The notes under the pieces: generated by a model
The model's database searches: none
What the model was told of the DNA's origin: nothing
The model's input: the letters and a program-made list of their open reading frames with translations, nothing else
Made by a program: the position numbers and the translations under genes
NCBI GenBank assembly: GCA_938084585.1
Contig: CALKFF010000029.1
Location: 1 to 64,000, forward strand
DNA length: 64,000 bases
DNA from: an uncultured Flavobacteriales bacterium
GTDB lineage: Bacteria > Bacteroidota > Bacteroidia > Flavobacteriales_D > Sanyastnellaceae
Direction of reading: 5' to 3'
Part shown: one piece after another, positions 11,999 to 44,412 of the stretch
How positions within the stretch are numbered: position 1 is the stretch's first letter
How the letters are laid out: every line of letters starts with the position of its first letter

Positions 11999-12017
11999 CG
12001 GCGCTTGTTCCAAGGGC

Positions 12018-12593: not shown

Positions 12594-12599
12594 CGGGAC

Positions 12600-13739: not shown

Positions 13740-13748
13740 GCGGCGAAT

Positions 13749-14159: not shown

Positions 14160-14193
14160 CTGTCCAAAGATGCGACACTTGTACCTTCGCGGC

Positions 14194-14364
14194 GTGGAAG
14201 GCGCATTGGATTGGTTGAAGGCCCTCGGCGTGGCAGGATTTTTGTTCTTTTTGGGCAAAGGCATCTTGTGGCTCGTCGTATTTTGGCTGGTCTCCAAAGG
14301 CGTCATCCCCAAGGAGCGCATGGACGCCTTGAAAGCGAAGTTGTCTCGCAAACCCCGCACATGA
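14194..14364 (+). CDS. Small single-helix membrane protein upstream of hemJ
   Basis: 56 residues if read from the GTG at 14194; an in-frame ATG at 14170 would give 64. The GTG is preferred because the promoter-like octamer TACCTTCG (14182-14189) lies 4 bases before it and would be inside the longer reading. The protein has one strong hydrophobic helix (VAGFLFFLGKGILWLVVFWL) and a basic tail (KERMDALKAKLSRKPRT). Its stop overlaps the hemJ ATG by four bases (ATGA), so the two are translationally coupled. Function unknown, possibly related to HemJ. Confidence 0.65.
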   Translation: MEGALDWLKALGVAGFLFFLGKGILWLVVFWLVSKGVIPKERMDALKAKLSRKPRT

Positions 14365-14894: not shown

Positions 14895-14896
14895 CG

Positions 14897-19805: not shown

Positions 19806-19806
19806 G

Positions 19807-21051: not shown

Positions 21052-21056
21052 CGTGG

Positions 21057-21064
21057 CAAAACTA
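21057..21064 (-). promoter_or_regulatory. Putative -7 box (TAGTTTTG) of the hemACDEBN operon
   Basis: Exact TAnnTTTG on the minus strand five bases before the hemA ATG (21051). A transcript from it would begin about at the ATG. No TTTG at -33. Confidence 0.4.
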
Positions 21065-21203
21065 GGGGGGTGTTTTCGTGGGAAGGGCCTTCAGATTGTC
21101 CGCGTTTTGTCAAACGTGACGGCCAAGGGCACGAAGGCCTTTGAGCCGGGAGAAGTGGTTTGTTCTTTCGCCGTGCGGCAGGCCAAACCTCCGCACGCCC
21201 CTC

Positions 21204-23527: not shown

Positions 23528-23683
23528 TCACTTCTTGGGCTGGTGCCGCTCGTTGTGGTCGCGGCGCCGCTTGGTCATTTGCTCCAGTTCGGCACCCCAG
23601 TCGTTCAAGTCTTCCGGGTCCTCCGGATTGAACTTCGGAGGGCGCTTGGCGTGCACGTTCTTCAAGTCTCGCTTCCTGCCCAT
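23528..23683 (-). CDS. Small basic protein of 51 residues
   Basis: Open frame from the ATG at 23683 to the TGA at 23528-23530, directly abutting the hemL stop on the other strand. The product (starts MGRKRDLKNVHAKRPPKFN, ends ERHQPKK) is very hydrophilic, lysine/arginine rich, with an acidic patch EDPEDLNDWGAELEQM in the middle. No cysteine and no hydrophobic segment. It looks like a real short gene by composition and by lying tightly between neighbours. Function unknown. Confidence 0.55.
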   Translation of the reverse strand: MGRKRDLKNVHAKRPPKFNPEDPEDLNDWGAELEQMTKRRRDHNERHQPKK

Positions 23684-23767
23684 GTCGATTCAATCGCATT
23701 TGGCAGGAAGTTGTTCATGCCTGAACACAACGTGTTGACATCCAAATCCATGCCCTACCTTGGAGAC

Positions 23768-24958
23768 ATGTCCAAGCTCACCTTCTTCTCGAAAATCGTG
23801 GCAGCCATGTTCTGCATCCTTGCAGGCGTTGGCGTGTCGCGGGGACAGTTGACCACGGAGACCCTTGTGGTCGATGGCGACGCCCGAACCTATTTATTGT
23901 ACTTGCCTGATGGGCATTCTGCGGACCAAACCTGGCCGCTTGTCATGAACTTCCACGGGGGCAGTGGCGCGGCTGAAGGCCAATTGGCTGTGGCCGACAT
24001 GCGGGACCGCGCAGACGAGGAGGGCATCATCTTGGCCTACCCGCAAGCCCTGCCTGACCCCAACGACGGCGGGTCCACGAATTGGCAAGTGGTGACTTCC
24101 GGTGACCTGCCCTTCACGGTGCCCAACCCGCACAGCGACATCGACTTCATCTCGGACCTCGTCGACGCGTTGGTGGCCAACCAAGGGGTCAATCCTGCAA
24201 GGGTGTATGCAATGGGATATTCCAATGGGGGTGGGTTCGCCTACGATTTGGCCTGCCGGCTGAACGACAAAATCACCGGCATCGGGGCCGTGGCACGCAC
24301 CATGTACGCCGAGTCGATGACCTCGTGTGTGGTGACGCACCCCACTCCGGTGGTGACAATTTTGGGCACGAACGATTTCATCTCGAACTACGACGGGGTG
24401 GAATACCAGGGCACGTTGTACTACCACAGCAGCGACGACGTCAACGCCCACTGGGTGGAGGTCAACGGACTCAACCCTGCACCTGAGGTGACCCTCTTGC
24501 CCAACCTGGATGCGACGGACGGCAGCACGGTGGAAGAATCCACGTGGCTCAGCGACGACGGGTGCCACGCCTTGCACCACTACAAAGTGATCGGGGGCGA
24601 TCACGATTGGCCGGGCTCGTTTGGCAATGGAGACATCGTGGCCCACGACTTGATTTGGGACAAGTTGAAAGTCCACGACCACCACGGGCTCATCGGATGC
24701 GAGACCTCTGGGCATGCTGAAGTGGAGGCTGTGGCGAACCACTCCGTGTATCCCAACCCTGCAATGCAAGGGCAATCTGTCGTGTTGACCAGCGGCCAGC
24801 CGTTCGGCGAGGCCATTGTGTTGAATGCCGCAGGCCAAACCGTGAAGCAGCGCAGCTTCCCCCCCACCACACGCACTGATCTGACTTTGTCCAACCTGCC
24901 TGCCGGATTCTACTTTGTGGAGCACGGCGCCATTCGGACCCCGTTGGTCATTCACTGA
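23768..24958 (+). CDS. Secreted PHB-depolymerase-like esterase with T9SS domain
   Basis: 396 residues from the ATG at 23768, chosen because it starts a good signal peptide (KLTFFSKIVAAMFCILAGVGVSRG) and because TACCTTGG lies four bases upstream. The hydrolase has VMNFHGGSG, the nucleophile elbow MGYSNGGGFAYDLACR and GGDHDWPGSFGNGD with the catalytic His. C-terminal 80 residues (VYPNPAMQGQSVVL, EAIVLNAAGQTVKQ, PAGFYFVEHG) are a T9SS type A signal. It is a paralogue of the 1551-3077 product, sharing the unusual LPNLD.TDGS block before the histidine region, but without the DDGSC module. Substrate unknown. Confidence 0.78.
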   Translation: MSKLTFFSKIVAAMFCILAGVGVSRGQLTTETLVVDGDARTYLLYLPDGHSADQTWPLVMNFHGGSGAAEGQLAVADMRDRADEEGIILAYPQALPDPNDGGSTNWQVVTSGDLPFTVPNPHSDIDFISDLVDALVANQGVNPARVYAMGYSNGGGFAYDLACRLNDKITGIGAVARTMYAESMTSCVVTHPTPVVTILGTNDFISNYDGVEYQGTLYYHSSDDVNAHWVEVNGLNPAPEVTLLPNLDATDGSTVEESTWLSDDGCHALHHYKVIGGDHDWPGSFGNGDIVAHDLIWDKLKVHDHHGLIGCETSGHAEVEAVANHSVYPNPAMQGQSVVLTSGQPFGEAIVLNAAGQTVKQRSFPPTTRTDLTLSNLPAGFYFVEHGAIRTPLVIH

Positions 24959-24968
24959 TTCCCCACCC

Positions 24969-26411
24969 ATGCGAACGATCTCATATCTTCTGAGTGCAGC
25001 GTTGTCTGTGGGGCTTGGGCTGCAAGGCTTGGCCCAATGCAACAGCTGCGAACCCGACCTCAGTTGTGCTGCAGCTGATTTTCCCGTGTTGTGTCCCGAG
25101 ACGCTGGCCGACGCCACGGCGGGCGAGCCTTACGAGGAAATCATCACCTTCAACTTGCCGCCTGTTGTGGTCGACCCGGCGACCGACCTCTCTGTGGACC
25201 TGCTGTCCGTGACGATCTCCAGCGTGTTGGGACTTCCATTTGGGTTGGAGTTCACGCCGAGCAATGCGGACGGCACCTACGAACCGGGCAACGGCGAAAC
25301 ATACGGCTGCGCCACCGTGTGCGGCACGCCCCTCTCGGCTGGAGAATACCTCGTGGACATCAACGTGGCGGTGGTGGCCTCGGCGTTTGGGTTCGAACAA
25401 AGCGTGGACCAAAGTTTCTCCCTCGCCCTCACTGTCCTGCCTGGGGACAACCCCGACGCGGTGAGTTCCTTCGAACTCAGCACCCTGTCTGGCTGCGCGC
25501 CACTGGACATGACTGGAACGGCGCTTGTCACCGACGCCGGCGCCTCGTACGCCTGGGACTTCGGCAACGGGCAGGGCTCCGACGAGGCCAACCCCTCCTT
25601 CAGCTTCGACTCGACGGGCACGTACACGGTGCAATTGGCCACGGAAGTGGAAGCCTTGACGTTGACCCAAGTGGCCATCAGCTCACTTGGTGGCGGATGG
25701 GGCCAGGACGTGGACGATTTCTTTGGCCAACCCGACCCCTACTTCGTGTTGAGTGACGCCAACGGCACCCTGTACACCTCCGCCTACGGCTCAGAAACCC
25801 AAAACCCCACCCTCGGCGGGTTCAGCATTTCCTTGAATTTCGGGGCGTCCTACAGCATCGCCTTTTACGACAGCGACAGCTTCTCCAGCGACGACTTCCT
25901 GGGGGCGTCGGACTTTGTGGCGGAAGGGGGTGGCGAAGTGACGGTCTCCAACAGCACGACCGCCACCTTGACACTGACGTCATCCGTCGTGGGCACCTTC
26001 AACGAGTCGCTGAGCGTCGTGGTTTTCGACGACTTGGACGTCTGGCTTGACATGGACGGCGACGGCTTCGGAGACCCTGCGGTGCCCGTCGACGCGTGCG
26101 ACCCTGGCAACACCCTTCCCTACGCCTTCAACGACGCGGACTGCGATGATGCGAACGCCAACGTGTACCTCGACGCTGACCCCACAGGCGAAGGCGTCGA
26201 CAACAACTGCGACGGCCTTTTGAGTCCCGACGAGATGGTGCCTTGCCCTGGAGATTTGAACCTGGACACCCAGGTGTCCGTGGCCGACGTGCTGGTCATG
26301 TTGAGTGACTTTGGATGCATGTCGGCATGCGAGTCGGACTTGACGTCCGATGGGTCGGTCAGCGTGGAAGATCTCTTGGCGCTGCTGGCCTACTTCGGAA
26401 CGCAGTGCTGA
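24969..26411 (+). CDS. Secreted PKD/C2-like protein with dockerin-like C-terminus
   Basis: 480 residues from the ATG at 24969. Signal peptide (1-22, ending QGLAQ). A cysteine-bearing beta region (23-160) is followed by a PKD-like domain (about 170-240, YAWDFGNGQGSDEANP), a C2-like beta region (about 245-320, DPYFVLSDANGTLYTSAYG), a MopE-type acidic segment (DADCDDANANVYLDA, VDNNCDGLLSP) and a C-terminal pair of EF-hand-like loops (DLNLDTQVSVADVL and DLTSDGSVSVEDLL) separated by a C-x3-C. The end resembles a type I dockerin. No enzyme domain. Likely a surface calcium-binding or adhesive protein; it follows the esterase gene by 10 bases. Confidence 0.65.
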   Translation: MRTISYLLSAALSVGLGLQGLAQCNSCEPDLSCAAADFPVLCPETLADATAGEPYEEIITFNLPPVVVDPATDLSVDLLSVTISSVLGLPFGLEFTPSNADGTYEPGNGETYGCATVCGTPLSAGEYLVDINVAVVASAFGFEQSVDQSFSLALTVLPGDNPDAVSSFELSTLSGCAPLDMTGTALVTDAGASYAWDFGNGQGSDEANPSFSFDSTGTYTVQLATEVEALTLTQVAISSLGGGWGQDVDDFFGQPDPYFVLSDANGTLYTSAYGSETQNPTLGGFSISLNFGASYSIAFYDSDSFSSDDFLGASDFVAEGGGEVTVSNSTTATLTLTSSVVGTFNESLSVVVFDDLDVWLDMDGDGFGDPAVPVDACDPGNTLPYAFNDADCDDANANVYLDADPTGEGVDNNCDGLLSPDEMVPCPGDLNLDTQVSVADVLVMLSDFGCMSACESDLTSDGSVSVEDLLALLAYFGTQC

Positions 26412-26429
26412 AGCTGCAAAGACGGAGCC

Positions 26430-29009
26430 TCAGCAGAACGATCCGTACACCGACAAAATGTCCAGGAAGTCGCTCACAGTGACTTGGCCGTCGCCGTCCA
26501 CATCGGCGGTGCACCCGGAAGTGCACCCGAATTCCGACAGCGCAGCCAGGATGTCCGACACCGTGACGACCCCGTCGCTGTCGATGTCTTGTGGGCAACC
26601 GCAAGGCTCGCAACTTCCGTCGTCGTAGAGGGCGTCTGATTCGTAGTTGCACGCTTCGGGGTCGGTGCAGCCGAGCACGCAATCGCCTTCGATGTTGGCG
26701 TCAAGCCAGGCCATGCGGTCGTCGATCCAGTTGCGCAGGAAGTCAACTTCCTCCTCGTACGTCTGGCCAATGAATACGTTGGGCCACACGTACTGCCCAA
26801 GGCGCGGCCAGCGGGCGTGGTCACGCACCTGGGGCGCAGCGAGCACACCGGCCAAAGAATCGATCATGGCGTCGATCGCCTCGTCGCTCCACACGCCCGA
26901 GCGGTAGTCGTCCCACATGCACCTCGTAAGTCCACGGTAACCTGGGTCCTCCCGAAGACGTTCCCACCAGAACGGATGCAGGACCCGACACCCGGTGTTG
27001 GACTCAAAGCCCGCCGTGTTGTAGCTGTCGCAACCGTCGGAGTTGCCAAACCCAAGGTTGTAGTCCCACCACGGACCCATCACAATTTTGCCGCCGTCCG
27101 AATCCTTCTCTTTGTAGAAGTAGGTGCTGAGTCGGTACGCGTCGACATTCTTGGTGATTTCGTTGGCGAAATACATCTGGATGAACGACTGGGCGTCGAT
27201 GTATGGGGCATACCCGAGCACGGGGTCGGTGAAGTTGCTGCCGGCAAGGGCGTGCTCGAACGCCGTGAAGTGGTTTTCGATGTAGTCCAGTTGCAGCGGG
27301 TGCAGGTCGTTCGCTTCGGGTTTGTGCATTTGGATGGTTTGGACTTCGCCGCCCAGCTTGGGGTACGGGGAGTTCCATCCCCCTTCGAAGTCCCCTTGAA
27401 CGCGGTCCACTTTCATGATGTACCCCCCAGTCAATTCGTTGCCCGCCGTGTCTGTCGGCAGCAGCGTGGCGATGTCCACTCGGTCGTTGTCGCGCTTGAC
27501 GCTCTCCATGAACATGTACACCCCGCGGTAGTCGCCGTTGACGTACAATTCGCAATGCCGGTAGCGCGGCGTGTAGCGCCCCAGAACCGACCCCATCTTG
27601 TAGATGACGGCGTTGCGAATGAGCGTCTTGTCGGAGTACGGGCCATGAAGGATCCAGTCGTTCTCGACCGGCAATCCCATCAGCGACACGTTGTTGTTGG
27701 CCCCGGTGGAATCCTGGGTTTCCAAGGCGTAAGACTGCTTGGGGAAGAATTGCGAGGACGAGCCCCGGATTTCGATGGTGATTTGGCCGTCGTATTCGTT
27801 GGGGGCGTCGCCCAAGGTGTTGAAGCCGCTGGGGAGGTTGGTCACCTTCATGTTGGCCACGATCCGGGGATCGTCGAGGATGGGGGTGTCCGTGGTGATT
27901 TGGACCAAGGGCAAATTCGACTCGTTCATGTAGATGCACGATCCGTCGTCCTGGGTGGCCGAGTCGAAGTGGTTGATGGCGGCCGGGTCGGTGCACCCGC
28001 TGATGGCGGCGCATGTGCCGTCCGTGGTGCACTGCGAAAAGCACGTGCTGATGGTGAACGACGAGGTCACGTTCTCCAGCAACCGGTCGTTCCAATGCGA
28101 CGGGTCGGCGCAATCCTGGCCGCCGATGTACTCCTTGCAGCTCCAATCCTGGCACGCGCCGTTGGTGAAGGTGTAGTTGCCGGTGAAGCCGTGGGGAATT
28201 TCCATCACCAGCGTCCACACGTCGTCGCCGTCAGGGTCTGAAAACGCGTGGGTCCCGGGGTACCCGAAGGTTCCGCCCGCGAGGTACACGCCCTCGGGCG
28301 ACACGTTTTCGTTGGACATGTTGAGGTTGAACGTCACGAAGTGGAAGTCCGGAGCAGGTGCGGCGAACCAACTTGGGGGTGTGCCGAAGGTTTGGGCCTC
28401 GTCCGACGTGCCCACAAACAAGAACGGCCGCGCCGTCAAATCCGAGGACCCCGGCCCCACGTTGTGCACCTCAATGGCGAGGGTGTTTTCACCTTGCACC
28501 AACGCTGTGGCAGGATCGAGGTTGATCAAATCCGGGGTGCCGCCGTTGTACAACACCGCTTCTTGGTCCACGGATATCGTCGCGTCCCACGCCACAAACT
28601 CCCCAGGATCGCCGCAGTTGCCACGGCCGATTTCCATGCCGTTGAGGTAGGCCACGTACCCGTCGTCGTAATCCATGGCGAACACCGCCTCCTCGATCGC
28701 CGCGAGGTTGTCGAGCGTGAATTGATGGCGCAGGTAGATGCTCGTCGTGGTGGGCACCACCGTGGCGTCGTCCCCGTCGCCGTAGCCAAAGCCAGAAGGC
28801 CCCTCTTCCCAGACGTCGTCGTTGAAACTGGCCTCGTTCCAATATTGGACGGGCTCAAACGACGGCACGAGGTACCGCCACGTTGTGCCGTCTTGCACCA
28901 CGGCTTCCCAGTGGTCGGTTTGGGCTGCCGCAGTGGATGACACGACCAACAAGGCCGCCACCACAAGGCACACATTTCGCAGGCGTCGGAAAGGCATGAA
29001 AGATCGCAT
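26430..29009 (-). CDS. Secreted CotH-kinase-family protein with dockerin-like C-terminus
   Basis: 859 residues from the ATG at 29009, where a signal peptide begins; a longer reading to 29135 has no signal-like start. Order: signal, a beta domain (about 35-190, GFGYGDGDDATV, VAYLNGMEIGRG), a second beta domain (210-290), a GCTDP...DDGSC module (about 325-348), the CotH domain (about 355-770) with FPKQSYALET, WILHGPYSDKTLIRN, YRGVYMFMESVKRDNDRVDI and GGYIMKVDR, a second GCTDP...DDGSC module and two EF-hand-like loops (DIDSDGVVTVSDIL, DVDGDGQVTVSDFL). CotH of Bacillus phosphorylates spore-coat proteins; CotH-like domains here could phosphorylate surface proteins, but activity is unproven. Confidence 0.78.
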   Translation of the reverse strand: MRSFMPFRRLRNVCLVVAALLVVSSTAAAQTDHWEAVVQDGTTWRYLVPSFEPVQYWNEASFNDDVWEEGPSGFGYGDGDDATVVPTTTSIYLRHQFTLDNLAAIEEAVFAMDYDDGYVAYLNGMEIGRGNCGDPGEFVAWDATISVDQEAVLYNGGTPDLINLDPATALVQGENTLAIEVHNVGPGSSDLTARPFLFVGTSDEAQTFGTPPSWFAAPAPDFHFVTFNLNMSNENVSPEGVYLAGGTFGYPGTHAFSDPDGDDVWTLVMEIPHGFTGNYTFTNGACQDWSCKEYIGGQDCADPSHWNDRLLENVTSSFTISTCFSQCTTDGTCAAISGCTDPAAINHFDSATQDDGSCIYMNESNLPLVQITTDTPILDDPRIVANMKVTNLPSGFNTLGDAPNEYDGQITIEIRGSSSQFFPKQSYALETQDSTGANNNVSLMGLPVENDWILHGPYSDKTLIRNAVIYKMGSVLGRYTPRYRHCELYVNGDYRGVYMFMESVKRDNDRVDIATLLPTDTAGNELTGGYIMKVDRVQGDFEGGWNSPYPKLGGEVQTIQMHKPEANDLHPLQLDYIENHFTAFEHALAGSNFTDPVLGYAPYIDAQSFIQMYFANEITKNVDAYRLSTYFYKEKDSDGGKIVMGPWWDYNLGFGNSDGCDSYNTAGFESNTGCRVLHPFWWERLREDPGYRGLTRCMWDDYRSGVWSDEAIDAMIDSLAGVLAAPQVRDHARWPRLGQYVWPNVFIGQTYEEEVDFLRNWIDDRMAWLDANIEGDCVLGCTDPEACNYESDALYDDGSCEPCGCPQDIDSDGVVTVSDILAALSEFGCTSGCTADVDGDGQVTVSDFLDILSVYGSFC

Positions 29010-29151: not shown

Positions 29152-30612
29152 ATGGACGTTTCCAACGCCGCCGAGACCTACAGCCACGAGCTGGAAGGTT
29201 TCGTGAGCCAACAACGGGCCGCCGTTGACTTGCAACACAGCATTGGCAAGTTGCTCTTGGACCATTCGATTGAACTGGTCCTGTTCCGAAACCACCTCGT
29301 CAACGTCAGCACCTCGGAGATTCTCCGGTTGCATGCGTACGCTGCCAAGGTGGTCGGCGAATCGATTTCTGTGTTTGACAGCGCCGAATTGGCCGAGCTC
29401 TTGCATGGCATGAAGCTCGCCCCCGCCAAAATTGACATCGGAAAACTGTCCGCGGAATGGCGCCACGAAGGCGGCGCCTTCGACAGCAAGGAGGCGTTCT
29501 TGGCGTCCAAGCTTGGAGGGTTCATGGCCGGCGGCGACGACCGCCCCGAGCCGAGGGACGTGGTGTTGTACGGGTTTGGCCGCATTGGCCGCCTCTGCGC
29601 CAGGGAATTGATCAAGCAAGCCGGCAAGGGACAGCAGCTGCGCCTGCGCGCTGTCGTGACCCGAAAGGTCGACGCGGACATCCTCGCCAGCCGGGCCGCC
29701 CTCATCGCCAACGACTCCGTCCACGGCGAATTTGGCGGGTCCATCGACGTGGATGTCGAGGCGAAATGCCTCATTGTCAACGGCCAGCGCATCCACATGA
29801 TCGCCGCCAGCGACCCGGCAAGCATCGACTACACGTCGTACGGCATCCAAGACGCCTTGGTCGTCGACAACACAGGGGTGTACCGAGACCGTGAGGCCTT
29901 GTCGCTTCACCTGCAGAGTGCCGGGGTGTCCAAGGTATTGCTCACGGCCCCGGGCAAAGGCATCCCCAACGTGGTCTACGGCATCAACCACGGCGACCTC
30001 GACCTCGACCAAGAGACGGTGTACTCCGCGGCGAGCTGCACGACCAACGCCATCAGCCCTGTGCTCAAAGTCATTGAGGACCACTTCGGGGTGGCAAGCG
30101 GCCACATCGAGACGGTGCACGCCTACACCAACGACCAAAACCTGCTCGACAACATGCACAAGAAGCACCGTCGAGGACGCTCGGCGGCGGTCAACATGGT
30201 CATCACCGAAACAGGTGCCGGCAAAGCCGTGACCAAGGTCATCCCTGAGTTGGAGGGCAAGCTCACCGCCAACGCTGTGCGCGTCCCCACACCCAACGGC
30301 TCCCTGGCCATCCTGAACTTGACCCTGGACAAGGCGACGACACGGGACCAGCTTTTGGCCACCCTGAAATCGGCGGCGCTGCAAGGCGCGCTTGTCAACC
30401 AAATCCACTTCTCCATGAACGAGGAATTGGTGAGCAACGACATCATCGGCAACGAGTGTTGCTCGGTCTTCGACAGCCCTGCAACCATTGTGTCCCAAGA
30501 CGGACAGCGGGTGGTGCTGTACGTCTGGTACGACAACGAGTTTGGCTACACCAAGCAGGTCATCCGACTCGCCAAGTACGTCGCCAAGGTGCGCCGCAAC
30601 ATCTACTACTGA
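29152..30612 (+). CDS. gap: Glyceraldehyde-3-phosphate dehydrogenase, long form
   Basis: 486 residues, about 150 longer than classical GAPDH. Residues 1-135 form a mostly helical N-terminal extension. The dehydrogenase core starts at YGFGRIGRLCARELI (NAD site), and the catalytic cysteine is in SAASCTTNAISPVLKV. VHAYTNDQNLLD and WYDNEFGYTKQVIRLAKYV complete the signature. This extended type is common in Bacteroidota. It oxidises glyceraldehyde-3-phosphate in glycolysis or acts in reverse; the coenzyme preference is not decided here. It has its own spacer from the CotH gene and is followed by a small membrane protein gene. Confidence 0.92.
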   Translation: MDVSNAAETYSHELEGFVSQQRAAVDLQHSIGKLLLDHSIELVLFRNHLVNVSTSEILRLHAYAAKVVGESISVFDSAELAELLHGMKLAPAKIDIGKLSAEWRHEGGAFDSKEAFLASKLGGFMAGGDDRPEPRDVVLYGFGRIGRLCARELIKQAGKGQQLRLRAVVTRKVDADILASRAALIANDSVHGEFGGSIDVDVEAKCLIVNGQRIHMIAASDPASIDYTSYGIQDALVVDNTGVYRDREALSLHLQSAGVSKVLLTAPGKGIPNVVYGINHGDLDLDQETVYSAASCTTNAISPVLKVIEDHFGVASGHIETVHAYTNDQNLLDNMHKKHRRGRSAAVNMVITETGAGKAVTKVIPELEGKLTANAVRVPTPNGSLAILNLTLDKATTRDQLLATLKSAALQGALVNQIHFSMNEELVSNDIIGNECCSVFDSPATIVSQDGQRVVLYVWYDNEFGYTKQVIRLAKYVAKVRRNIYY

Positions 30613-34850: not shown

Positions 34851-37800
34851 ATGAGCGCCTCGGACCACGTCAAGCCCATCTACCTCGGGCAGCAACCATA
34901 CCAAACCCCCGACACCTCTTCCTCTGGCGAGGAGGTCACCCTCGGCGAAGAGACCTACTACAAGATCAGCTCCGTCGATCGGATGCGTCCTTTCTTCATG
35001 AGCATCGTGAGCCACTCGGACCACTGGATGTTCATCGCCAGCAACGGCGGATTGAGCGCGGGCCGGAAGAACAGCGACTTCGCCCTCTTCCCCTACTACA
35101 CCGACGACAAAATCACCGAGGCCGCGGAAACCACCGGCAGCAAGACTGTGGTGTTGGTCGACGCCGGGGAGCGCCGCCTGCTTTGGCAGCCCTTTTCAGA
35201 CCAAAACAAAGGGGTCTACCGCCTCGAGCGCAACCTGTACAAGAACGCCTACGGCAACAAGGTCCTGTTCGAAGAAGTCAACCAAGACCTCGGACTCACC
35301 TTCCAGTACCAGTGGGCAGCCAGCGAGAAGTTTGGCTTCGTCCGCCACGCCAAGTTGACATCAACCGGGGCTTCCTCCGTGAAGGTGAGCGTGCTCGACG
35401 GCATCCAAAACATCCTGCCCTACGGCGTGCCTGAAGGGCTCCAGCGGGGCAGCAGCAACCTGGTGGACGCGTACAAGAAGTGCGAACTCGAAGAGGGCAA
35501 CCTCGGCCTGTACGCCTTGAGCGCCATCATCTCCGACAAGGCCGAGCCGAGCGAAGCGTTGAAGGCGAACGTGGTGTGGTCCATCGGCTTGGACGCCCCC
35601 AAGGTGCTCTTGTCTTCCAAGCAGCTCCCCGCCTTCCAAACCGGCGGAACCGTGGTCACAGAAACCGACATCAAAGCGGAACGCGGCGCCTACTTCGTCC
35701 AGTCTGACTTCGAATTGGCGGCCGGCGCCACCCAAGACTGGGTCATGGCCACGAATTTGGGCCAGTCGATCCGCAGCGTGGTGAAGCTGAAGCAAGACCT
35801 GAAGGCACCCGATGCGCTCAAGTCCGCGTTGCTTGAAGACATCGAAGAAGGCTCTCAACGGCTCATCGAATTGGTGGCCGCCAGCGACGGATTGCAACTC
35901 ACAGCCGACCGCCGCCGCAACATCCGACACTTCGCCAACACGATGTTCAACATCATGCGGGGCGGCATTTTCGACGAGAACTACACCATCGAGCGGGCCG
36001 ACTTCATGGCCTACATCGACCGGGCCAACCACAAGGTCTTCTTCAAGAAGTCCGAACTCATGCAAGGGTGGCCCGAGAAATTCGACCTGGCCTTCTTGCA
36101 AGCCCAAGCTGGACAGGACGACGACCTCAACTTCAAGCGCTTGTGCGCCGAGTACCTGCCGTTGAAGTTCAGCCGCCGCCACGGCGACCCCAGCCGTCCT
36201 TGGAACCGCTTCTCCATCAACCTGCGCGACGAAGAAACCGGGTCGAAGATTTTGGACTACCAGGGCAACTGGCGCGACATCTTCCAGAACTGGGAAGCCT
36301 TGGTGCACTCGTACCCCGAGTTCATCGAAGGCATGATTTTCAAGTTCTTGAACGCGACCACCTTCGACGGCTACAACCCCTACCGCGTGTTCAAGGATGG
36401 CTTCGAGTGGGAAGAAATTGAGCCGGACAACCCTTGGTCGTACATCGGCTACTGGGGCGACCACCAAATCATCTACCTCCTGAAATTCCTGGAGTTCTTG
36501 CAGGCGTACTACCCCGAGAAACTCGAAGACTACTTCCAGAACGACTCGTTCGTCTACGCCAACGTCCCCTACCGGATCAAGCCGTACGACGCCCTTCTGG
36601 AGGACCCCAAGAACACCATCGATTACGACCACGAGGCAGGCCAAAAAATCGACCTCAAGCGTGGCGAAATCGGCGGCGACGGCGCACTCCTTCGCGAGAC
36701 GCACGTCTTCATCTACAAGGTGAACTTCATCGAGAAGTTGATGGCCACCATGCTCGCCAAAGTCGCCAACTTCATCCCCGAGGGCGGCATTTGGATGAAC
36801 ACCCAACGTCCGGAGTGGAACGACGCCAACAACGCCCTGGTGGGCAACGGCGTGTCCATGGTGACGTTGTACTACCTCCGCCGGTTCTTGGTCTACTTCC
36901 AGGACATCTTGGCGAAGACCAACCACCAAGAAGTCTCTGTGTCTGAGGAATTGCTGGACTGCTTCCGCCGCATCGACGCCACTTTGCGCGAGCACCAGGG
37001 GCTGACGACGGGCGACATTTCCAACGCCCAGCGCCGCGCCATCTTGGACGGTTTGGGCACCGCATCCAGCGACTACCGCCACAAAATCTACAAGGAGGAC
37101 TTCTCCGGCCGCAAGGGCACATTGGCGTTGTCGGACCTGGCGAGCTTTGTCAAGGTGGCACTCTCTCACCTCGAGCACTCCATCCGAGCCAACAAGCGGA
37201 CTGACGGCCTGTACCACGCGTACAACCTGATGACGGTGGAAGCCGATGGCGGCGTGGACATCACTTACCTCCCTGAAATGTTGGAAGGTCAAGTGGCCGT
37301 GCTCAGCTCGGGCTTGCTCGACGCGAAGGAAAGCCTCGAGGTGCTCGACGCCCTCAAGGCCAGCGCCCTGTTCCGGGAGGACCAGTACAGCTACGTGCTC
37401 TACCCCAACAAGGACTTGCCGCGCTTCCTGGACAAGAACAACCTGGCCCCCCAAGCCGTGGCGGACTCGGCGTTGTTGTCCCAACTTTTGGCCGACGGCA
37501 ACCAAGACATCGTCACCCAAGATTGCCTCGGCGGGTTCCACTTCAACGGCAACTTCCACAACGTGAAAGCCCTGCGGGCCGCCTTGGCGGACCTTCCCCC
37601 AGCGTACGACGCCTTGGTGGCCAAGGAGCAGCAAAGCGTGGAGGCCATCTACGAAGGCATCTTCAACCACAAGGCGTTCACCGGCCGGTCCGGCACGTTC
37701 TTCGGCTACGAAGGCCTGGGCTCGATTTACTGGCACATGGTCTCCAAGCTCCGCTTGGCGGCGTTTGAGGTGACCCAAGACGCGGTCGCCCAACAGGAAT

Positions 37801-38312
37801 CTTCGGAGGTGGTGGGCCGTTTGTTTGACCACTACTTCGAGATCAACGCAGGCATCGGTGCCCACAAGTCGCCCGAGCTCTACGGTGCGTTCCCGACAGA
37901 CCCCTACTCGCACACCCCTGGTGGCAAAGGCGCCCAGCAGCCTGGCATGACGGGCCAAGTGAAGGAGGACCTGCTCTGTCGCTTCGGCGAATTGGGCGTT
38001 CGGGTGTCGGAGGGCAAAATTCACTTCGACCGCGCTCTCATGCACGCCGAAGAATTCCTGTCGGCGCCGGCGAGCTTTGAGTACGTCGACGTCACCCAAA
38101 CCTGGAAGACGGTCGACTTGCCTGCAGACAGCTTGGCGTACACCCTGTGCCAAGTGCCTGTGGTGCACCTCCGTGGGGACAGCCCCTCGGTGGAACTCAC
38201 CTTGGCCGACGGTCGGACCGAGCGGTTCGACGGACTGGAATTGGACCTCGAATGGAGCCGGAAGATTTTCCGCCGTTCCAACGACGTGGTCCGAATGACC
38301 GTCACGGCTTAA
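34851..38312 (+). CDS. Glycoside phosphorylase, GH94/GH149-like; probable beta-1,3-glucan phosphorylase
   Basis: 1153 residues, no signal peptide, so cytoplasmic. The N-terminal beta region (about 1-290) and a long helical (alpha/alpha)6-like region (300-1060) match the build of inverting disaccharide and oligosaccharide phosphorylases. RPWNRFSINLRD and GNWRDIFQNWEAL are in the middle, and QRPEWNDANNALVGNGVS (652-669) parallels the W-N-D catalytic region of GH94. Length and the linked GH17 and GH30 genes favour the beta-1,3-oligoglucan phosphorylase families (GH149 or GH161) over cellobiose phosphorylase. Expected reaction: oligo-beta-1,3-glucan plus phosphate gives glucose-1-phosphate. First of a five-gene operon; the next gene starts 9 bases later. 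The family number is inferred. Confidence 0.72.
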   Translation: MSASDHVKPIYLGQQPYQTPDTSSSGEEVTLGEETYYKISSVDRMRPFFMSIVSHSDHWMFIASNGGLSAGRKNSDFALFPYYTDDKITEAAETTGSKTVVLVDAGERRLLWQPFSDQNKGVYRLERNLYKNAYGNKVLFEEVNQDLGLTFQYQWAASEKFGFVRHAKLTSTGASSVKVSVLDGIQNILPYGVPEGLQRGSSNLVDAYKKCELEEGNLGLYALSAIISDKAEPSEALKANVVWSIGLDAPKVLLSSKQLPAFQTGGTVVTETDIKAERGAYFVQSDFELAAGATQDWVMATNLGQSIRSVVKLKQDLKAPDALKSALLEDIEEGSQRLIELVAASDGLQLTADRRRNIRHFANTMFNIMRGGIFDENYTIERADFMAYIDRANHKVFFKKSELMQGWPEKFDLAFLQAQAGQDDDLNFKRLCAEYLPLKFSRRHGDPSRPWNRFSINLRDEETGSKILDYQGNWRDIFQNWEALVHSYPEFIEGMIFKFLNATTFDGYNPYRVFKDGFEWEEIEPDNPWSYIGYWGDHQIIYLLKFLEFLQAYYPEKLEDYFQNDSFVYANVPYRIKPYDALLEDPKNTIDYDHEAGQKIDLKRGEIGGDGALLRETHVFIYKVNFIEKLMATMLAKVANFIPEGGIWMNTQRPEWNDANNALVGNGVSMVTLYYLRRFLVYFQDILAKTNHQEVSVSEELLDCFRRIDATLREHQGLTTGDISNAQRRAILDGLGTASSDYRHKIYKEDFSGRKGTLALSDLASFVKVALSHLEHSIRANKRTDGLYHAYNLMTVEADGGVDITYLPEMLEGQVAVLSSGLLDAKESLEVLDALKASALFREDQYSYVLYPNKDLPRFLDKNNLAPQAVADSALLSQLLADGNQDIVTQDCLGGFHFNGNFHNVKALRAALADLPPAYDALVAKEQQSVEAIYEGIFNHKAFTGRSGTFFGYEGLGSIYWHMVSKLRLAAFEVTQDAVAQQESSEVVGRLFDHYFEINAGIGAHKSPELYGAFPTDPYSHTPGGKGAQQPGMTGQVKEDLLCRFGELGVRVSEGKIHFDRALMHAEEFLSAPASFEYVDVTQTWKTVDLPADSLAYTLCQVPVVHLRGDSPSVELTLADGRTERFDGLELDLEWSRKIFRRSNDVVRMTVTA

Positions 38313-38321
38313 CCTCTGGGC

Positions 38322-39581
38322 ATGCGTAGCCTGCCCTTGACTTTGGCGCAAACAGGACGATCGTTGGTCGTCCTGTTGTGTTTGACTGCGACCTTCGCTT
38401 CGTGCGGAGACACCAACCCCACCGATCCCATGAAACACCTCTCGGCCGCTGAACTTTTGGGCAACCCCGACTGCCCCGCCATCTCGTACGGGGGGTACAG
38501 AGAGACGAGCCGTGCGGAACAACCCACCCTCGACCAGTTGAAAGAGGACATGCGCATCCTGCACGCCATGGGCATTCGGTTCTTGCGCACCTACAACGTC
38601 CAACTGCCCCACGCTTCCAACGTGGTTCAGGCCATCGCCGAGTTGAAGCTAGAGGACCCGACCTTCGAGATGTACGTGATGCTCGGGGCTTGGATCGATT
38701 GTGTGGGCGCGTGGACGGGCACCCCCAACCACGCAGAGCAAGATTACGAAGCCAACGAGGCGGAGATTGACCGGGCGGTGGCGCTGGCCCAAGCCCACCC
38801 CGACATCGTCAAGGTGTTGGCCGTCGGCAACGAAGCCATGGTGCACTGGGCTGCTTCGTACTTCGTGGCGCCTGGGGTCATCCTGCATTGGGTGAACCAC
38901 CTCCAGGACCTGAAAGCCGAGGGCGAACTCCCCAGCGACTTGTGGGTCACCAGTTCAGACAACTTCGCCTCTTGGGGCGGCGGCGGGCCGGAGTACCACA
39001 ACGCCGACCTCGACAGCCTCATCCAAGCCGTGGACTTCGTGTCCATGCACACTTACCCGTTCCACGACACCCACTACAACCCCACTTTCTGGAAGGGCGA
39101 AGGACTTGACCCCCACGACGTGGACGGCGCGATGGCGCGGGCCGTGGCGTACAGCCAAAACCAATACGCCCAAGTGGTGAACTACGTGCGGCGCATCGAC
39201 GCCGACAAGCCTGTCCACATTGGTGAGACCGGCTGGGCGAGCGTGTCCGACGGCTTTTACGGGCCGGAAGGGTCTCGGGCCGCCGACGAGTACAAGCAGG
39301 CCCTGTTCCACCAAGGGATGCGCGACTGGACGCAATCCGAGGGCATCAGCTGCTTTTACTTCGAGGCGTTTGACGAGCCTTGGAAGAGCGCGGCGAACCC
39401 CACCGACTCTGAGAACCACTTTGGGCTGTTCACCCGCGACGGCGAAGCGAAGTACGCGCTTTGGCCCCTCGTGAAGCAGGGGGTGTTCGAGGGCCTCACC
39501 CGCGACGGCCACCCCATCAAGCCCACCTATTCTGGCGAGCGCGACTTGCTCGACCGCCATGTTTTGAACCCAGCCCATTGA
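38322..39581 (+). CDS. GH17-family beta-1,3-glucanase-like lipoprotein
   Basis: 419 residues. Lipoprotein signal (LVVLLCLTATFASC, Cys28). The barrel begins AISYGGYR, and the catalytic pair is E171 in VGNEAMV (acid/base) and E302 in IGETGWAS (nucleophile), with the GH17 C-terminal FYFEAFDEPWK. GH17 enzymes cut or rearrange beta-1,3-glucans such as laminarin. Being a lipoprotein it should act in the periplasm or at the cell surface. Spacing to the next gene is two bases. Confidence 0.85.
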   Translation: MRSLPLTLAQTGRSLVVLLCLTATFASCGDTNPTDPMKHLSAAELLGNPDCPAISYGGYRETSRAEQPTLDQLKEDMRILHAMGIRFLRTYNVQLPHASNVVQAIAELKLEDPTFEMYVMLGAWIDCVGAWTGTPNHAEQDYEANEAEIDRAVALAQAHPDIVKVLAVGNEAMVHWAASYFVAPGVILHWVNHLQDLKAEGELPSDLWVTSSDNFASWGGGGPEYHNADLDSLIQAVDFVSMHTYPFHDTHYNPTFWKGEGLDPHDVDGAMARAVAYSQNQYAQVVNYVRRIDADKPVHIGETGWASVSDGFYGPEGSRAADEYKQALFHQGMRDWTQSEGISCFYFEAFDEPWKSAANPTDSENHFGLFTRDGEAKYALWPLVKQGVFEGLTRDGHPIKPTYSGERDLLDRHVLNPAH

Positions 39582-39583
39582 CC

Positions 39584-42061
39584 ATGAAACACCTTCCTTT
39601 GATGCTTGCCTTCTTGGCCACTGTGCTGCTGGGCACCTCCTGCGGATCCACCACGGAAGCCCGACGCGTTTGGGTCGAGGAAGGGCAGCTCGTCACGGAC
39701 GCCGGTCCACTCTTCATGTACGGCGTGTGTTACCACCCGGTGCCGGTGGGAGAATCCGAGCGCAGCTTTGAGACGTTGACCCAGGATTTGGCCTTGATGA
39801 AAGACATGGGCATCAACACGCTGCGCGTGTACGAACCCATCGCCTCCAAGGAAGTGCTTGATGAAATCAGCGCAGCTGGCCTCTCGGTCATTGTTGGGCT
39901 GGGGTACAACCAAGGCGGCGTCTACGACTTGCAGTCCGGGACGTACCTCGACTACGTGAAGCGGTTCAAGTCGCATCCGGCCATCCTGCTTTGGGAATTG
40001 GGCAACGAGTACAACTTCCACCCTGAGTGGTTCGGCGGATCGTTGGACGTGTGGTACGAGACCCTTCGCGAGGTGGCCGCGGCCATCCAAGCGGAGGACC
40101 CCAACCACCCTGTGTCCACGGCGCACGGCGAGTTGCCAGACCAGGCGCTCATCGACGAGCTGACCGACATCGACGTTTGGGGCATGAACGTGTACCGCTG
40201 GGATGTGTCTTACACCGCCGCCTTGGACTTTGCCAAGCGCAGTGACAAGCCCGTGTATTTCTCTGAAATTGGGGCGGACAGCTACATGACGACTGCGGCG
40301 CTGGGCTACGACCAAGGCCACAATCCAAGGGCGCAAGCCGACGCCACCCGCAACTTGCTCGAGCCCCTGCTCTCGGACTCGGTCCCCAGCGCGGGAGCGG
40401 TGTTGTTTTCCTTCACCGACGGTTGGTGGAAGGCAGGGAACCCCAATGAGCAGGACCCCGGGGGCATGGCCCCTGCAAGCAGCGGCGTCCCCTACGACAG
40501 CGACGCCAATGAAGAGCACTGGGGCTTGGTGGACATCCACCGCAACCCGAAGGACGCCTACCACGTGGTGAAGTCCCTGTTTCAATCGCATCAAGCCTCT
40601 GACATGAAGGAGAAGACGTTCCGGAAGACCGTGTTTGAGACCTCCCGCCGAGGAGGCCGCTTCCACGAGGTCCCTCAAGCCACTGTGGACGGTTGGGAGA
40701 ACCCCCAATCTGAGGTGTTGCACGTGAAGGTGAATGCGCAGGACAAAAGACAAACGATCGAAGGCTTTGGCGGGTCCTTCACGGACGCCTCGGCCTACCT
40801 CGTGCACCAGTTGAGCGCACCCCAACGCGACAGCATCCTCAAGGCCTACTTCGCCGAGGAGGGCGCCAATTACAGCCTCACCCGGACGCACATGAATTCG
40901 TGCGATTTCTCCCGGTTCCACTACAGCTACGCCGAAGTGGAAGGAGACCTGGAGTTGGAGCACTTCAACATGGACCAGGACCGAGAATTCCTGTTCCCGA
41001 TGATCCGGGCAGCCCAAGACATCTCCAAAGACGGTTTCCAACTCATTGCCTCACCTTGGACGGCTCCGCCGTGGATGAAAGACAACAACAACTGGGTCGG
41101 CGGGCGCCTGCGCAAGGACATGCAACCCACGTGGGCCAACTTCTTCGTCAAGTACGCCAAGGAGTGCTTGGACGAGGGGCTTCCCTTGTGGGGCTTCACC
41201 GTGGAAAACGAGCCCCACGGCAACGGCGACAACTGGGAAAGCATGCTCTACTCGCCCGACGAGATGACGGAATTCGTGAAAGAGCACCTCGGCCCAGCGC
41301 TGGAAACGAACGGCTTGGGGCACTTGAACATCTTGGGCTACGACCAAAACCGCGCGGGACTGGACGAGTGGACGGCTTCCATGTACCGCGACGAGGAAAG
41401 CGCGAAGTACTTCGCCGGGACCGCCATCCACTGGTACGAAAGCACGTACGACGTCTTCGCGGACGACCTCGACCGGGCACACGACGCGGCTCCCGACAAG
41501 CTCCTCATCGAAACCGAAGGGTGCATCGATGCGGAGGTGCCGGTTTGGCAAGACGACGACTGGTACTGGCAAAAGGAAGCCACCGACTGGGGCTTCACTT
41601 GGCGCGAAGAGGAAAAGAAATACTTGCACCCCAAGTACTCCCCGGTTCACCGCTACGCCCGGGACATCATCGGGTGCTTGAACCACTGGGTGCACGGCTG
41701 GGTCGACTGGAACATGGTGTTGGACAGGCAGGGCGGCCCCAACTGGTTTGAAAACTGGTGCATCGCCCCGGTCATCGTCGACCCGGAACAAGACGAGGTG
41801 TACTTCACGCCGCTCTACGACGTGATGTGCCACTTCAGCAAGTTCATCCGCCCTGGCGCCACCGTGCTCGGCAGCGCATGTCCGGATGAAGACGTGATGG
41901 CCGTGGCCACCTCCAACGAAGACGGCTCCTACACCCTCGTGTGCTTCAACCAAGGCGACACCCCTCGGTCTGTGCACATCGAAGGCTTGCCCACCGACGT
42001 CCGGATTGAGCTGGATGCGCAAGCCCTCCAAACGATTGTCCTCACCCCTTACGACCTCTAA
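39584..42061 (+). CDS. Two-domain glycosidase lipoprotein: clan GH-A barrel fused to GH30
   Basis: 825 residues from the ATG at 39584. Lipoprotein signal ending TVLLGTSC (Cys20). Domain 1 (about 28-335) is a TIM barrel of GH2/GH5 type with E142 in WELGNEYN and E228 in VYFSEIGADS, the expected acid/base and nucleophile. Domain 2 (about 385-825) is GH30: TIEGFGGSFTDASAY, SPWTAPPWMKD, acid/base E543 in TVENEPHG, probable nucleophile E645 in IETEGC, and the C-terminal beta sandwich (SNEDGSYTLVCFNQ). GH30 members include beta-1,6-glucanases and glucosylceramidases; the glucan context suggests removal of beta-1,6 branches. In-frame codons before 39584 lie in the previous gene. Confidence 0.82.
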   Translation: MKHLPLMLAFLATVLLGTSCGSTTEARRVWVEEGQLVTDAGPLFMYGVCYHPVPVGESERSFETLTQDLALMKDMGINTLRVYEPIASKEVLDEISAAGLSVIVGLGYNQGGVYDLQSGTYLDYVKRFKSHPAILLWELGNEYNFHPEWFGGSLDVWYETLREVAAAIQAEDPNHPVSTAHGELPDQALIDELTDIDVWGMNVYRWDVSYTAALDFAKRSDKPVYFSEIGADSYMTTAALGYDQGHNPRAQADATRNLLEPLLSDSVPSAGAVLFSFTDGWWKAGNPNEQDPGGMAPASSGVPYDSDANEEHWGLVDIHRNPKDAYHVVKSLFQSHQASDMKEKTFRKTVFETSRRGGRFHEVPQATVDGWENPQSEVLHVKVNAQDKRQTIEGFGGSFTDASAYLVHQLSAPQRDSILKAYFAEEGANYSLTRTHMNSCDFSRFHYSYAEVEGDLELEHFNMDQDREFLFPMIRAAQDISKDGFQLIASPWTAPPWMKDNNNWVGGRLRKDMQPTWANFFVKYAKECLDEGLPLWGFTVENEPHGNGDNWESMLYSPDEMTEFVKEHLGPALETNGLGHLNILGYDQNRAGLDEWTASMYRDEESAKYFAGTAIHWYESTYDVFADDLDRAHDAAPDKLLIETEGCIDAEVPVWQDDDWYWQKEATDWGFTWREEEKKYLHPKYSPVHRYARDIIGCLNHWVHGWVDWNMVLDRQGGPNWFENWCIAPVIVDPEQDEVYFTPLYDVMCHFSKFIRPGATVLGSACPDEDVMAVATSNEDGSYTLVCFNQGDTPRSVHIEGLPTDVRIELDAQALQTIVLTPYDL

Positions 42062-42073
42062 ACCTCGCGGATC

Positions 42074-43510
42074 ATGGACCCTTCGACCTCACCCCCCACC
42101 TCGACCGTTTCCATGGGCCAAAAAGTGGCCTTCGGATTTGGCATGTTGGCCAACCAGATGTTCCCGGCTGCCTTGGGCGTGTTCATCATTGTGCTGGTGC
42201 AAGACCTCGGGTTTGCCGCCCTGCTTTGGGGCATCATCCAGTTTTTGCCCCGCGTATTCGACGCCATCACCGACCCGGTCATGGGGTTCATCTCCGACAA
42301 CACCCGCTCCAAATGGGGGCGACGCCGGCAGTATGTGTTCATTGGCGCCCTCCTGATGGGCGTCGCCTACATCGCCATGTGGCAACTCCACAAGGGCGAC
42401 GGGGTCACGTACAACTTCATTTACTTCCTCAGTTGGTCGCTCGTCTTCTACCTCGGGCTGACCATCTTCAGCGTCCCCTACGTGGCCATGGGCTACGAGA
42501 TCAGCGAGGACTTCCACGAGCGGACGCAAATCATGGCCGTCGCCCAGTTCATCGGACAATGGGCCTGGGTCATCGCGCCTTGGTTCTGGGTCATCCTCTA
42601 CGACCCCAGTTGGTTCCCAGAAGGCGCCGACGCCGGGGTCCGCGAACTCTCCATCTGGGTCGCCATCCCTTGCACGCTGTTTGCCATGGTGCCGGCGTTG
42701 TTCCTCAAGAGCAAGTCGACTGTGGACCGGACCGACTTCTCCCCCATCAACGTGTCCGCCGTGTTGGGCAGCGTGGGGAAGATTTTCGTGTCGGCGTTTG
42801 AAGCCTTCCGAATCAAGCAGTTCCGCCAAATCGCAGGGGCGACATTCTTGATTTTCAACTCCTTCAACGTCATCGCGGCCTTCACGTTTTTGATCATCGT
42901 GCATTACATGTTCAACAGCGACCCTGCCAGCGCCGGCACCTGGCCAGCCATGCACGGCTCGGTGGGCGCCTTGATCACCACCTTCCTGGTCATCCCTGTG
43001 GTGACGTTCATGTCCAAGAAGTTGGGCAAGAAACGGGCCTTCATGGCGTGCCAGTTCATCTCGATCGTGGGCTACGTGCTGTTTTGGTTCCTCTTCATCC
43101 CGGGCAAGCCGTACCTGTTCCTGTTCGCCTTGCCGTTCCACTCGTTTGGCATCGGCAGCTTGTTCACCATCATGATGAGCATGACGGCGGACGTGTGCGA
43201 TTTGGACGAGCTCCAAACCGGCAAGCGCCGCGAAGGCGTGCTCGGTGCGGTGTACTGGTGGATGGTGAAGCTTGGCTTCGGTGTGGCCGCCCTCTTGAGC
43301 GGGGCCATCCTGTCCTTCGTGGGCTTCGACGCGGACAACGTCACCGAGTCGGCCGTCACAGGCATGCGGGCGTTCTACTCCCTCCTGCCCATCGCCGGCG
43401 TCATTGGCGCCTTGCTCATCATGAAGAACTACGACATCACCGAGGAAAGCGCCGCAAAGTTGAAGGAAGAACTCCTCCAAAAGCGCGCTGAGATCGCCCA
43501 ACAAGCCTGA
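42074..43510 (+). CDS. GPH-family glycoside:cation symporter (MelB-like)
   Basis: 478 residues, twelve membrane helices. The family hallmark is in the first loop: VFDAITDPVMGFISDNTRSKWGRRR (residues 62-85), broken here only by its own length. Further marks are FSVPYVAMGYEIS and the C-terminal DVCDLDELQTGKRREGVLGAVYWW. These inner-membrane carriers bring in disaccharides or oligosaccharides with Na+ or H+. Set in the glucan operon between the exported glycosidases and the cytoplasmic GH17, it should carry laminari-oligosaccharides or gentiobiose-type sugars (inference). Confidence 0.88.
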   Translation: MDPSTSPPTSTVSMGQKVAFGFGMLANQMFPAALGVFIIVLVQDLGFAALLWGIIQFLPRVFDAITDPVMGFISDNTRSKWGRRRQYVFIGALLMGVAYIAMWQLHKGDGVTYNFIYFLSWSLVFYLGLTIFSVPYVAMGYEISEDFHERTQIMAVAQFIGQWAWVIAPWFWVILYDPSWFPEGADAGVRELSIWVAIPCTLFAMVPALFLKSKSTVDRTDFSPINVSAVLGSVGKIFVSAFEAFRIKQFRQIAGATFLIFNSFNVIAAFTFLIIVHYMFNSDPASAGTWPAMHGSVGALITTFLVIPVVTFMSKKLGKKRAFMACQFISIVGYVLFWFLFIPGKPYLFLFALPFHSFGIGSLFTIMMSMTADVCDLDELQTGKRREGVLGAVYWWMVKLGFGVAALLSGAILSFVGFDADNVTESAVTGMRAFYSLLPIAGVIGALLIMKNYDITEESAAKLKEELLQKRAEIAQQA

Positions 43511-43512
43511 CC

Positions 43513-44412
43513 ATGAAACTGATGAACATGTCGTACAGGGCCGACAAGGTCCTGTCGCTGGCCGGAAACGGCCCCAACCGTGAAGACCGCGCGGAGCTCC
43601 AAAAGCAATGCGCGTCCTTGGTGGAAGACAAGATGCACGGCATCTGCTTCAGTCCGTACGAAGGCGACCAGCAACCGGGGGATGCCTTCACAGAAGCGCA
43701 AGTGCGGCGCAAGCTTGAGCTGCTCCAGCCCCACACGAAGTGGATCCGCATTTTCTCCTGCACCGACGGGAACGACATGATTCCAAAGCTCGCCCGTGAG
43801 TATGGATTCAAAACCCTCGTCGGCGCTTGGCTCGGTGAAGAAAAGGACAAGAACGAGGAGGAAATGACGCGCCTCGTGGAATTGGCCCAAGCCGGGTTCG
43901 TGGACGTGGCGGCCGTCGGCAACGAAGTGCTTTACCGCGAGGAAATGGCCGAGGCCGAGCTCATCGCATGCATCGACCGCGTGCGAAACGCCCTCCCAGA
44001 CGTGCCGGTGGGTTACGTCGACGCGTACTACGAATTCAGCGACCGTCCCGCGTTGGCGCAGGCGTGCGATGTGATTTTGGCCAACTGCTACCCCTACTGG
44101 GAAGGCTGCCACATGGACTACTCTCTGCTCTACATGAAGCAGATGTACTATCAGGTGAAGCAAGCGCAGCCCGACAAAAAGATCATCATCACCGAAACGG
44201 GCTGGCCCAGCGAGGGCGAGGCTTTGGGCGGAGCTGAACCCAGCTACGAGAACGCTCTGAAATACTTCATCAACGCCCAAAGGTGGGCCCGCAAAGAGGA
44301 CATCGACATGTTCTACTTCGCGGCGTTCGACGAGGCGTGGAAGGTCGGCACGGAAGGCAGCGTGGGCGCATTCTGGGGCCTCTGGGACAAAGACGAGAAG
44401 CGGAAGTTCTGA
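43513..44412 (+). CDS. Cytoplasmic GH17-family beta-1,3-glucan hydrolase or transglycosidase
   Basis: 299 residues, no signal peptide. GH17 motifs are clear: ICFSPYEG, IRIFSCTDGND, VGNEVLYR (E138, acid/base) and IIITETGWPSEGEA (E228, nucleophile), then FYFAAFDEAWK. The length equals the bare catalytic barrel. Sharing an operon with a cytoplasmic phosphorylase suggests it trims imported beta-1,3-glucan chains or rearranges them into phosphorylase substrates. Last gene of the glucan unit; the 55-base gap after it contains the next promoter. Confidence 0.85.
   Translation: MKLMNMSYRADKVLSLAGNGPNREDRAELQKQCASLVEDKMHGICFSPYEGDQQPGDAFTEAQVRRKLELLQPHTKWIRIFSCTDGNDMIPKLAREYGFKTLVGAWLGEEKDKNEEEMTRLVELAQAGFVDVAAVGNEVLYREEMAEAELIACIDRVRNALPDVPVGYVDAYYEFSDRPALAQACDVILANCYPYWEGCHMDYSLLYMKQMYYQVKQAQPDKKIIITETGWPSEGEALGGAEPSYENALKYFINAQRWARKEDIDMFYFAAFDEAWKVGTEGSVGAFWGLWDKDEKRKF

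Follow-up and report, generated by a model that had tools for sequence, protein, structure and literature searches.

A putative laminarin-type GH149 gene cluster in an uncultured Flavobacteriales bacterium and its candidate, loosely linked SusC-SusD locus

Introduction

How would a bacterium take up a polysaccharide when the gene cluster that appears to degrade it encodes exported glucanases, an inner-membrane transporter and a phosphorylase, and no SusC/SusD importer? The question is raised by a five-gene operon in the 64,000-nucleotide stretch of DNA analysed here (hereafter, the window). We examined which families these genes belong to, how often their arrangement recurs, where an importer might be encoded, and in which cellular compartments the enzymes might act.

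A five-gene operon with a GH149 phosphorylase

The operon comprises five ORFs on the plus strand (34851-44412 of the window) with intervening gaps of 9, 2, 12 and 2 bases, and all five of the tightly packed genes reported in the preliminary description, with spacings of 2-12 bases, were recovered. The start of the third gene was set at the ATG at 39584, where the lipoprotein signal MKHLPLMLAFLATVLLGTSC begins, and the gaps were computed from there. The features are as follows.

34851-38312, plus strand: predicted GH149 beta-1,3-glucan phosphorylase, 1153 aa (NF058639, PDB 6HQ6, motifs)
38322-39581, plus strand: GH17 lipoprotein (GH17A), 419 aa (PF00332, motifs)
39584-42061, plus strand: GH-A/GH30 fusion lipoprotein, 825 aa (Pfam GH2_C, GH30 and GH30C; split-gene comparison; AlphaFold barrel model)
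39584-40603, plus strand, within the fusion: signal sequence with lipobox LLGTSC, followed by the clan GH-A barrel, whose GNE (140) holds the acid/base and FSEIG (226) the nucleophile
40604-40606, plus strand, within the fusion: in-frame ATG (Met341), possible internal translation start, coinciding with the first codon of stand-alone GH30 genes
40757-42037, plus strand, within the fusion: GH30 catalytic barrel and beta-sandwich (PF02055 251.8 bits, PF17189 27.1 bits), ENEP at 541, ETEG at 643
42074-43510, plus strand: putative MFS_2 / GPH-type sugar transporter, inner membrane, 478 aa (PF13347)
43513-44412, plus strand: GH17 without signal peptide (GH17B), 299 aa (PF00332, motifs)

We take the five ORFs to be real genes because their family matches lie above cut-offs, their catalytic motifs are intact, and the same order is found in many genomes. 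Promoter and terminator scans returned nothing exceeding chance. Only a few genes away from the operon, on its upstream side (29152-30612), the window encodes a long-form glyceraldehyde-3-phosphate dehydrogenase (486 aa, NF006139).

The first gene product had been described as a GH94/GH149-like phosphorylase; the GH149 half of this assignment held and the GH94 half fell. The HMM search that had been proposed for the 34851-38312 product exceeded the curated GH149 cut-off, with 1726.9 bits against 1150 for NCBIfam NF058639 (1,3-beta-D-glucan phosphorylase GH149) over residues 23-1152; the protein also matched PDB 6HQ6, the solved GH149 enzyme Pro_7066, end to end with 1473 bits, and a Pfam search of all 1153 residues gave no match. 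Membership of GH161 was rejected, as it reached only ~60 bits in the PDB, and so was membership of GH94, a ‘cellobiose phosphorylase’ PDB entry likewise reaching only ~60 bits. A phosphorylase for another linkage, such as cellobiose, had been named as a case against the preliminary reading; with the family being GH149, cellobiose is ruled out as a substrate by homology. The GH-Q active site is intact: comparison with Pro_7066 (PMC6771811) places the WND motif at W656-N657-D658 (catalytic D658), the RD motif at R475-D476 and the phosphate histidine at H962 of YWHM. Pro_7066 and EgP1 both act on beta-1,3 linkages (PMC6484121, PMC5827456). The phosphorylase is thus a GH149 member, predicted to phosphorolyse beta-1,3-gluco-oligosaccharides; it carries no signal peptide and is predicted to be cytoplasmic, and homology in this respect bears out the earlier proposal of phosphorolysis inside the cell.

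GH17A matched PF00332 with 33.2 bits (cut-off 28.2) and displays GNE at 169 and GETGW at 301; it is a predicted periplasmic endo-beta-1,3-glucanase. GH17B (53.6 bits to PF00332; GNE at 136, TETGW at 227) is a predicted cytoplasmic exo-glucosidase or transglycosylase, and both homology and the absence of a signal peptide agree with its earlier description as a cytoplasmic GH17. The transporter matched PF13347 (MFS_2) with 203 bits, which supports the MFS/GPH-type importer proposed before, although its 172.7 bits to TIGR00792 (GPH:cation symporter) fall under the cut-off of 231.35; we regard it as GPH-like and as a putative sugar importer.

Recurrence of the gene order and comparison with laminarin loci

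Scanning 84,980 species genomes, we found 167 GH149 loci and compared the best 80 of them with the window. Among these best 80 of 167, dozens of Flavobacteriales share the order GH149-GH17-[GH-A]-GH30-MFS-GH17. When the 49 loci of the best 80 with at least 6.5 kb downstream were queried by tblastn, MFS was present in 49, GH17A in 44, GH30 in 41, GH17B in 41 and GH-A in 31, with all five present in 20/49. The recount by tblastn matters for GH30, as ORF-based ‘no GH30’ calls were caused in part by antisense ORFs on GC-rich contigs; locus L029 has GH30 by tblastn, contrary to its ORF-based call. In loci L049, L050, L059, L066, L077, L086, L087 and L088, MFS and GH17 form a single protein of ~780 aa like that of Formosa, and another GH17 comes next.

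The arrangement is also documented in the literature. Muricauda has a published GH17A-GH30-MFS-GH17B set with GH149 upstream, and Polaribacter and Formosa share the four-gene core (PMC13188888); the same order is termed ‘variant B’ in PMC6298971 and ‘variant 1’ in PMC10108472. Variant B / variant 1 and the Muricauda and Formosa laminarin PULs match the window in GH149, an endo GH17, GH30, MFS and a further GH17, with order and strand conserved. The window differs from variant B / variant 1 in that no SusCD or GH16 is adjacent and GH30 is fused to a GH-A barrel, and from Formosa in that MFS and GH17B are separate genes rather than fused. One variant 1 locus is written GH149-GH0-GH30_1-GH17 (PMC10108472), and this ‘GH0’ may correspond to the GH-A gene of the window. 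In Formosa, for which a laminarin-specific proteome has been reported, GH17A is an endo enzyme that cuts the backbone, GH17B is an exo beta-1,3-glucanase, and GH30 is an exo-beta-1,6-glucosidase that removes beta-1,6 branches (PMC6246565).

The recurring order and the match to a published laminarin locus support the inference of substrate, and not novelty; homology (GH149, Formosa/Muricauda-type order) therefore favours the laminarin-type beta-1,3-glucan target that had been proposed. The activities of GH149, GH17 and GH30 would fit any beta-1,3/1,6-glucan, the source of which sequence cannot name, and the target might be a different glucan with beta-1,3 linkages (callose, a glucan of fungal or Euglena-like type, or one with mixed linkages) instead of algal laminarin. 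Given that the closest studied loci are laminarin-induced, or laminarin-assigned in phytoplankton blooms (PMC6246565, PMC10108472), we consider this rather unlikely.

The preliminary description had treated the lack of SusC/SusD as unusual for a glucan locus, a view that does not survive comparison: 17/23 well-flanked loci among the best 80 of 167 have no SusC/D within the flank, a SusCD-less variant 1 has been reported for the NS4 MAG W_MB115 (PMC10108472), and PMC5827456 describes Bacteroidetes GH149 ‘CAZyme clusters’ without susCD. These clusters combine GH149, beta-1,3-glucanases and a GH30 beta-glucosidase, as in the window; unlike the window, they have no fused GH-A/GH30 gene mentioned in the passages that describe them. 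The window clusters the GH17 pair, GH30, MFS and GH149 in the variant B / variant 1 order and lacks the adjacent SusC/SusD pair of a canonical PUL, the nearest pair being ~33 kb off in a genus-mate; by the literature’s definition, the operon is hence a CAZyme cluster and not a PUL. We read it as the likely counterpart of the published variant B / variant 1 laminarin loci, but with no SusCD of its own. The five-gene arrangement is ordinary and widespread, and SusCD-lessness is likewise ordinary; only the fusion and its retained internal start codon are features that specialists may not expect.

A SusC-SusD-GH16-GH3 locus collinear with the window in a genus-mate

No TonB-receptor (SusC) or SusD matches were found on the contig of the window, C29. 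The genome, which is 78% complete, has two SusD matches. Contig C37 carries GH3, a T9SS-sorted protein, SusC, SusD and GH16 on one strand (2470-13025, minus strand, of its first 20000 bases). A second SusCD pair, accompanied by an alpha-amylase, forms a starch or glycogen locus on contig C3 (4154-12527). The C37 SusC matched TIGR04056 with 869 bits; it scored 518-592 bits against four complete SusCs of GH149-linked loci and 287 against the starch SusC of the genome, and the C37 SusD similarly scored 174-255 bits against SusDs of GH149-linked loci versus 51 against the starch SusD. The SusC of L038, a SusCD-linked related locus, was no nearer to the C37 SusC than the starch SusC.

C37 and the operon can be related through G155, a genome of the same genus, in which one contig carries the C37 genes and then collinear blocks of window sequence (base 10 to 35602). 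There, SusC (13408-16476, minus strand) lies upstream of GH149 (from ~49129, plus strand) at a distance of ~33 kb; in G173, which belongs to another genus, SusC and GH149 also share a contig, ~37 kb apart. From the collinearity in G155, C37 very probably adjoins the left end of the window. A segment of ~14 kb in the window (12562-26458) is absent between the matching blocks of G155, a possible insertion; with this additional sequence in between, the distance from SusC to GH149 in the genome of the window would be at least ~47 kb.

Within the family of the window, 25/114 genomes have GH149 and 50/114 have the SusC ortholog. The ortholog was found in 20/25 GH149-positive and 30/89 GH149-negative genomes (Fisher p 6e-5, relatedness uncontrolled); the 5/25 GH149-positive genomes without it at the strict threshold are 79-93% complete. 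The four genera with GH149 all fall within the six that have a C37-type SusC.

Because the SusC ortholog is linked to the GH149 operon by collinearity, the importer would be encoded outside the operon rather than missing. The earlier statement that no SusC/SusD is present stands for the window and contig C29; a SusCD missing from the genome is rejected by the C37 locus and its collinearity in G155. A locus that is SusCD-less in one window can thus have its partner tens of kb off, which calls of PULs based on adjacency would miss. The gene set of C37 (SusC, SusD, GH16, GH3) resembles the variant A laminarin PUL, GH16-GH3-SusCD (PMC6298971), from which it differs by a single GH16 instead of two framing GH3, by the T9SS-sorted protein in between, and by its position beyond the window edge. 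Laminarin genes are dispersed in Maribacter, and enzymes and SusCD need not share a locus (PMC11345257); Maribacter differs in having no GH17 or GH30 set, whereas the genes here are in two compact loci.

Might the operon instead stand alone, with no need of SusCD, and scavenge only short laminari-oligosaccharides that other cells release from laminarin and that diffuse in through porins? PMC5827456 interprets type I proteobacterial GH149 clusters in this way, and the lack of SusC/D in the operon, in the 64-kb window and near the 17/23 related loci (best 80 of 167) would fit such a lifestyle. The genome, however, encodes a SusCD of the beta-glucan type next to GH16 and GH3, in a locus that the genus-mate shows to be collinear with the window, and the predicted periplasmic polysaccharide-active modules of the operon would be superfluous for di- and trisaccharides; we hold stand-alone scavenging to be improbable.

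Predicted location of the enzymes and a model for laminarin catabolism

In Bacteroidetes, lipoproteins destined for the cell surface have acidic residues directly after the lipidated cysteine (PMC5080379). Two acidic residues at positions +2 to +5 were present in 0/47 GH17A and 0/31 GH-A lipoproteins and in 4/6 SusDs of related loci among the best 80 of 167, a SusD count that leaves out the SusD of the genome itself. The absence of this surface-export signal makes a periplasmic location more likely than a surface one for the two exported proteins of the operon; the GH17A and GH-A/GH30 lipoproteins probably act in the periplasm and not outside the cell, as is also argued for exported enzymes in Formosa and Muricauda. 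The earlier proposal that enzymes of the operon cut the glucan outside thus finds no support.

Taken together, with families, gene order, catalytic motifs and the SusCD position read from the sequence, and with activities, locations and regulatory links predicted, we consider it very likely that the operon is a laminarin (beta-1,3/1,6-glucan) catabolic cluster of a marine or brackish Flavobacteriales bacterium, partnered with the loosely linked SusC-SusD-GH16-GH3 locus. A surface GH16 would trim laminarin, and the distant SusCD would import the pieces into the periplasm. There, the GH17A lipoprotein would cut the backbone while the GH-A/GH30 lipoprotein trims; by analogy with FbGH30, the most likely task of GH30 would be to take off beta-1,6 branches. 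The MFS/GPH carrier would move oligosaccharides inward, where GH149 would phosphorolyse them to glucose-1-phosphate and GH17B would finish or reshape short chains. Glucose-1-phosphate would then enter glycolysis via phosphoglucomutase, for which two family matches in the genome are candidate genes. That GH149 would instead work in synthesis and use glucose-1-phosphate to lay down a beta-1,3-glucan store can practically be set aside: the reaction is reversible in vitro (PMC5827456), but the family is taken as degradative in bacteria, a sugar importer gene lies downstream in 49/49 sufficiently flanked related loci (best 80 of 167), and most of these loci also encode exported glucanases.

An unassigned clan GH-A domain

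In the proposed laminarin cluster, the third gene product has an N-terminal clan GH-A domain. Its only Pfam match is the GH2 barrel PF02836 (28.7 bits, cut-off 21), which 27/29 members match; the best PDB profile match is the GH158 structure 9oro (E 1.3e-11, partial). A fold search with the AlphaFold model of the barrel (pLDDT 85) placed it nearest to GH2 barrels (Z 28), GH157 (Z 27) and GH158. With the GH158 and GH157 endo-beta-1,3-glucanases and the GH2 barrels, the domain shares the clan GH-A barrel and the acid/base and nucleophile glutamates, whereas the similarity is weak (~20% identity). Assignment to GH2 was rejected, as N-terminal GH2 sandwich domains were listed in none of the 29 members. 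Matches to GH72 in Pfam occur in 18/29 homologues and not in the copy of the window.

In 27 loci of the best 80 of 167, the GH-A domain was compared with a ~1050-aa GH2-barrel protein: 17 carry the one, 8 the other, none both and 2 neither. The mutual exclusion suggests a single role that both proteins fill, in a count in which related species cluster. The domain may be an unclassified laminarin enzyme, and the comparison singles out a conserved, as yet unassigned clan GH-A lipoprotein of laminarin loci.

The GH-A/GH30 fusion and its internal start codon

The GH30 domain is complete, with barrel, C-terminal sandwich and both catalytic glutamates; it scored 205.8 bits against NF053856, the equivalog for endo-beta-1,6-glucanases of the BT3312 type, below the cut-off of 700, and we regard it as glucosylceramidase-like and a probable beta-1,6-glucosidase. 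In most relatives, GH-A (~335 aa) and GH30 (~495 aa) are neighbouring separate genes, each encoding a lipoprotein. The two are fused in 11 distinct genomes of the family (the window, G154, G156, G098, G151, G152, G164, G165, G168, G170 and G173), some of these sequences being fragmentary and two having a single stop in the draft; they are split in G160 of the same genus, in G049 of the same family and in the outgroup L028. The split GH30 frames of G160, G049 and L028 leave no room for a signal peptide, and the L032 GH30 also appears signal-less. The GH30 of split family members therefore appears cytoplasmic, and that of fused ones exported.

At the very site where the stand-alone GH30 begins, 11/11 fused genomes have retained a start codon (10 ATG, 1 TTG). 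The junction linker around it varies: among the 11 fused genes, identity is at most 64% in every other column from -7 to +6. The retention of a start codon in a variable linker permits, and does not prove, a second product from inside the gene. We find it possible, if doubtful, that the fused gene makes two proteins, a periplasmic GH-A+GH30 lipoprotein and a cytoplasmic GH30 initiated at the ATG at 40604; if so, the internally started GH30 would strip branches from imported oligosaccharides and so clear the way for GH149. Across this one family, the compartment in which GH30 resides seems to have shifted.
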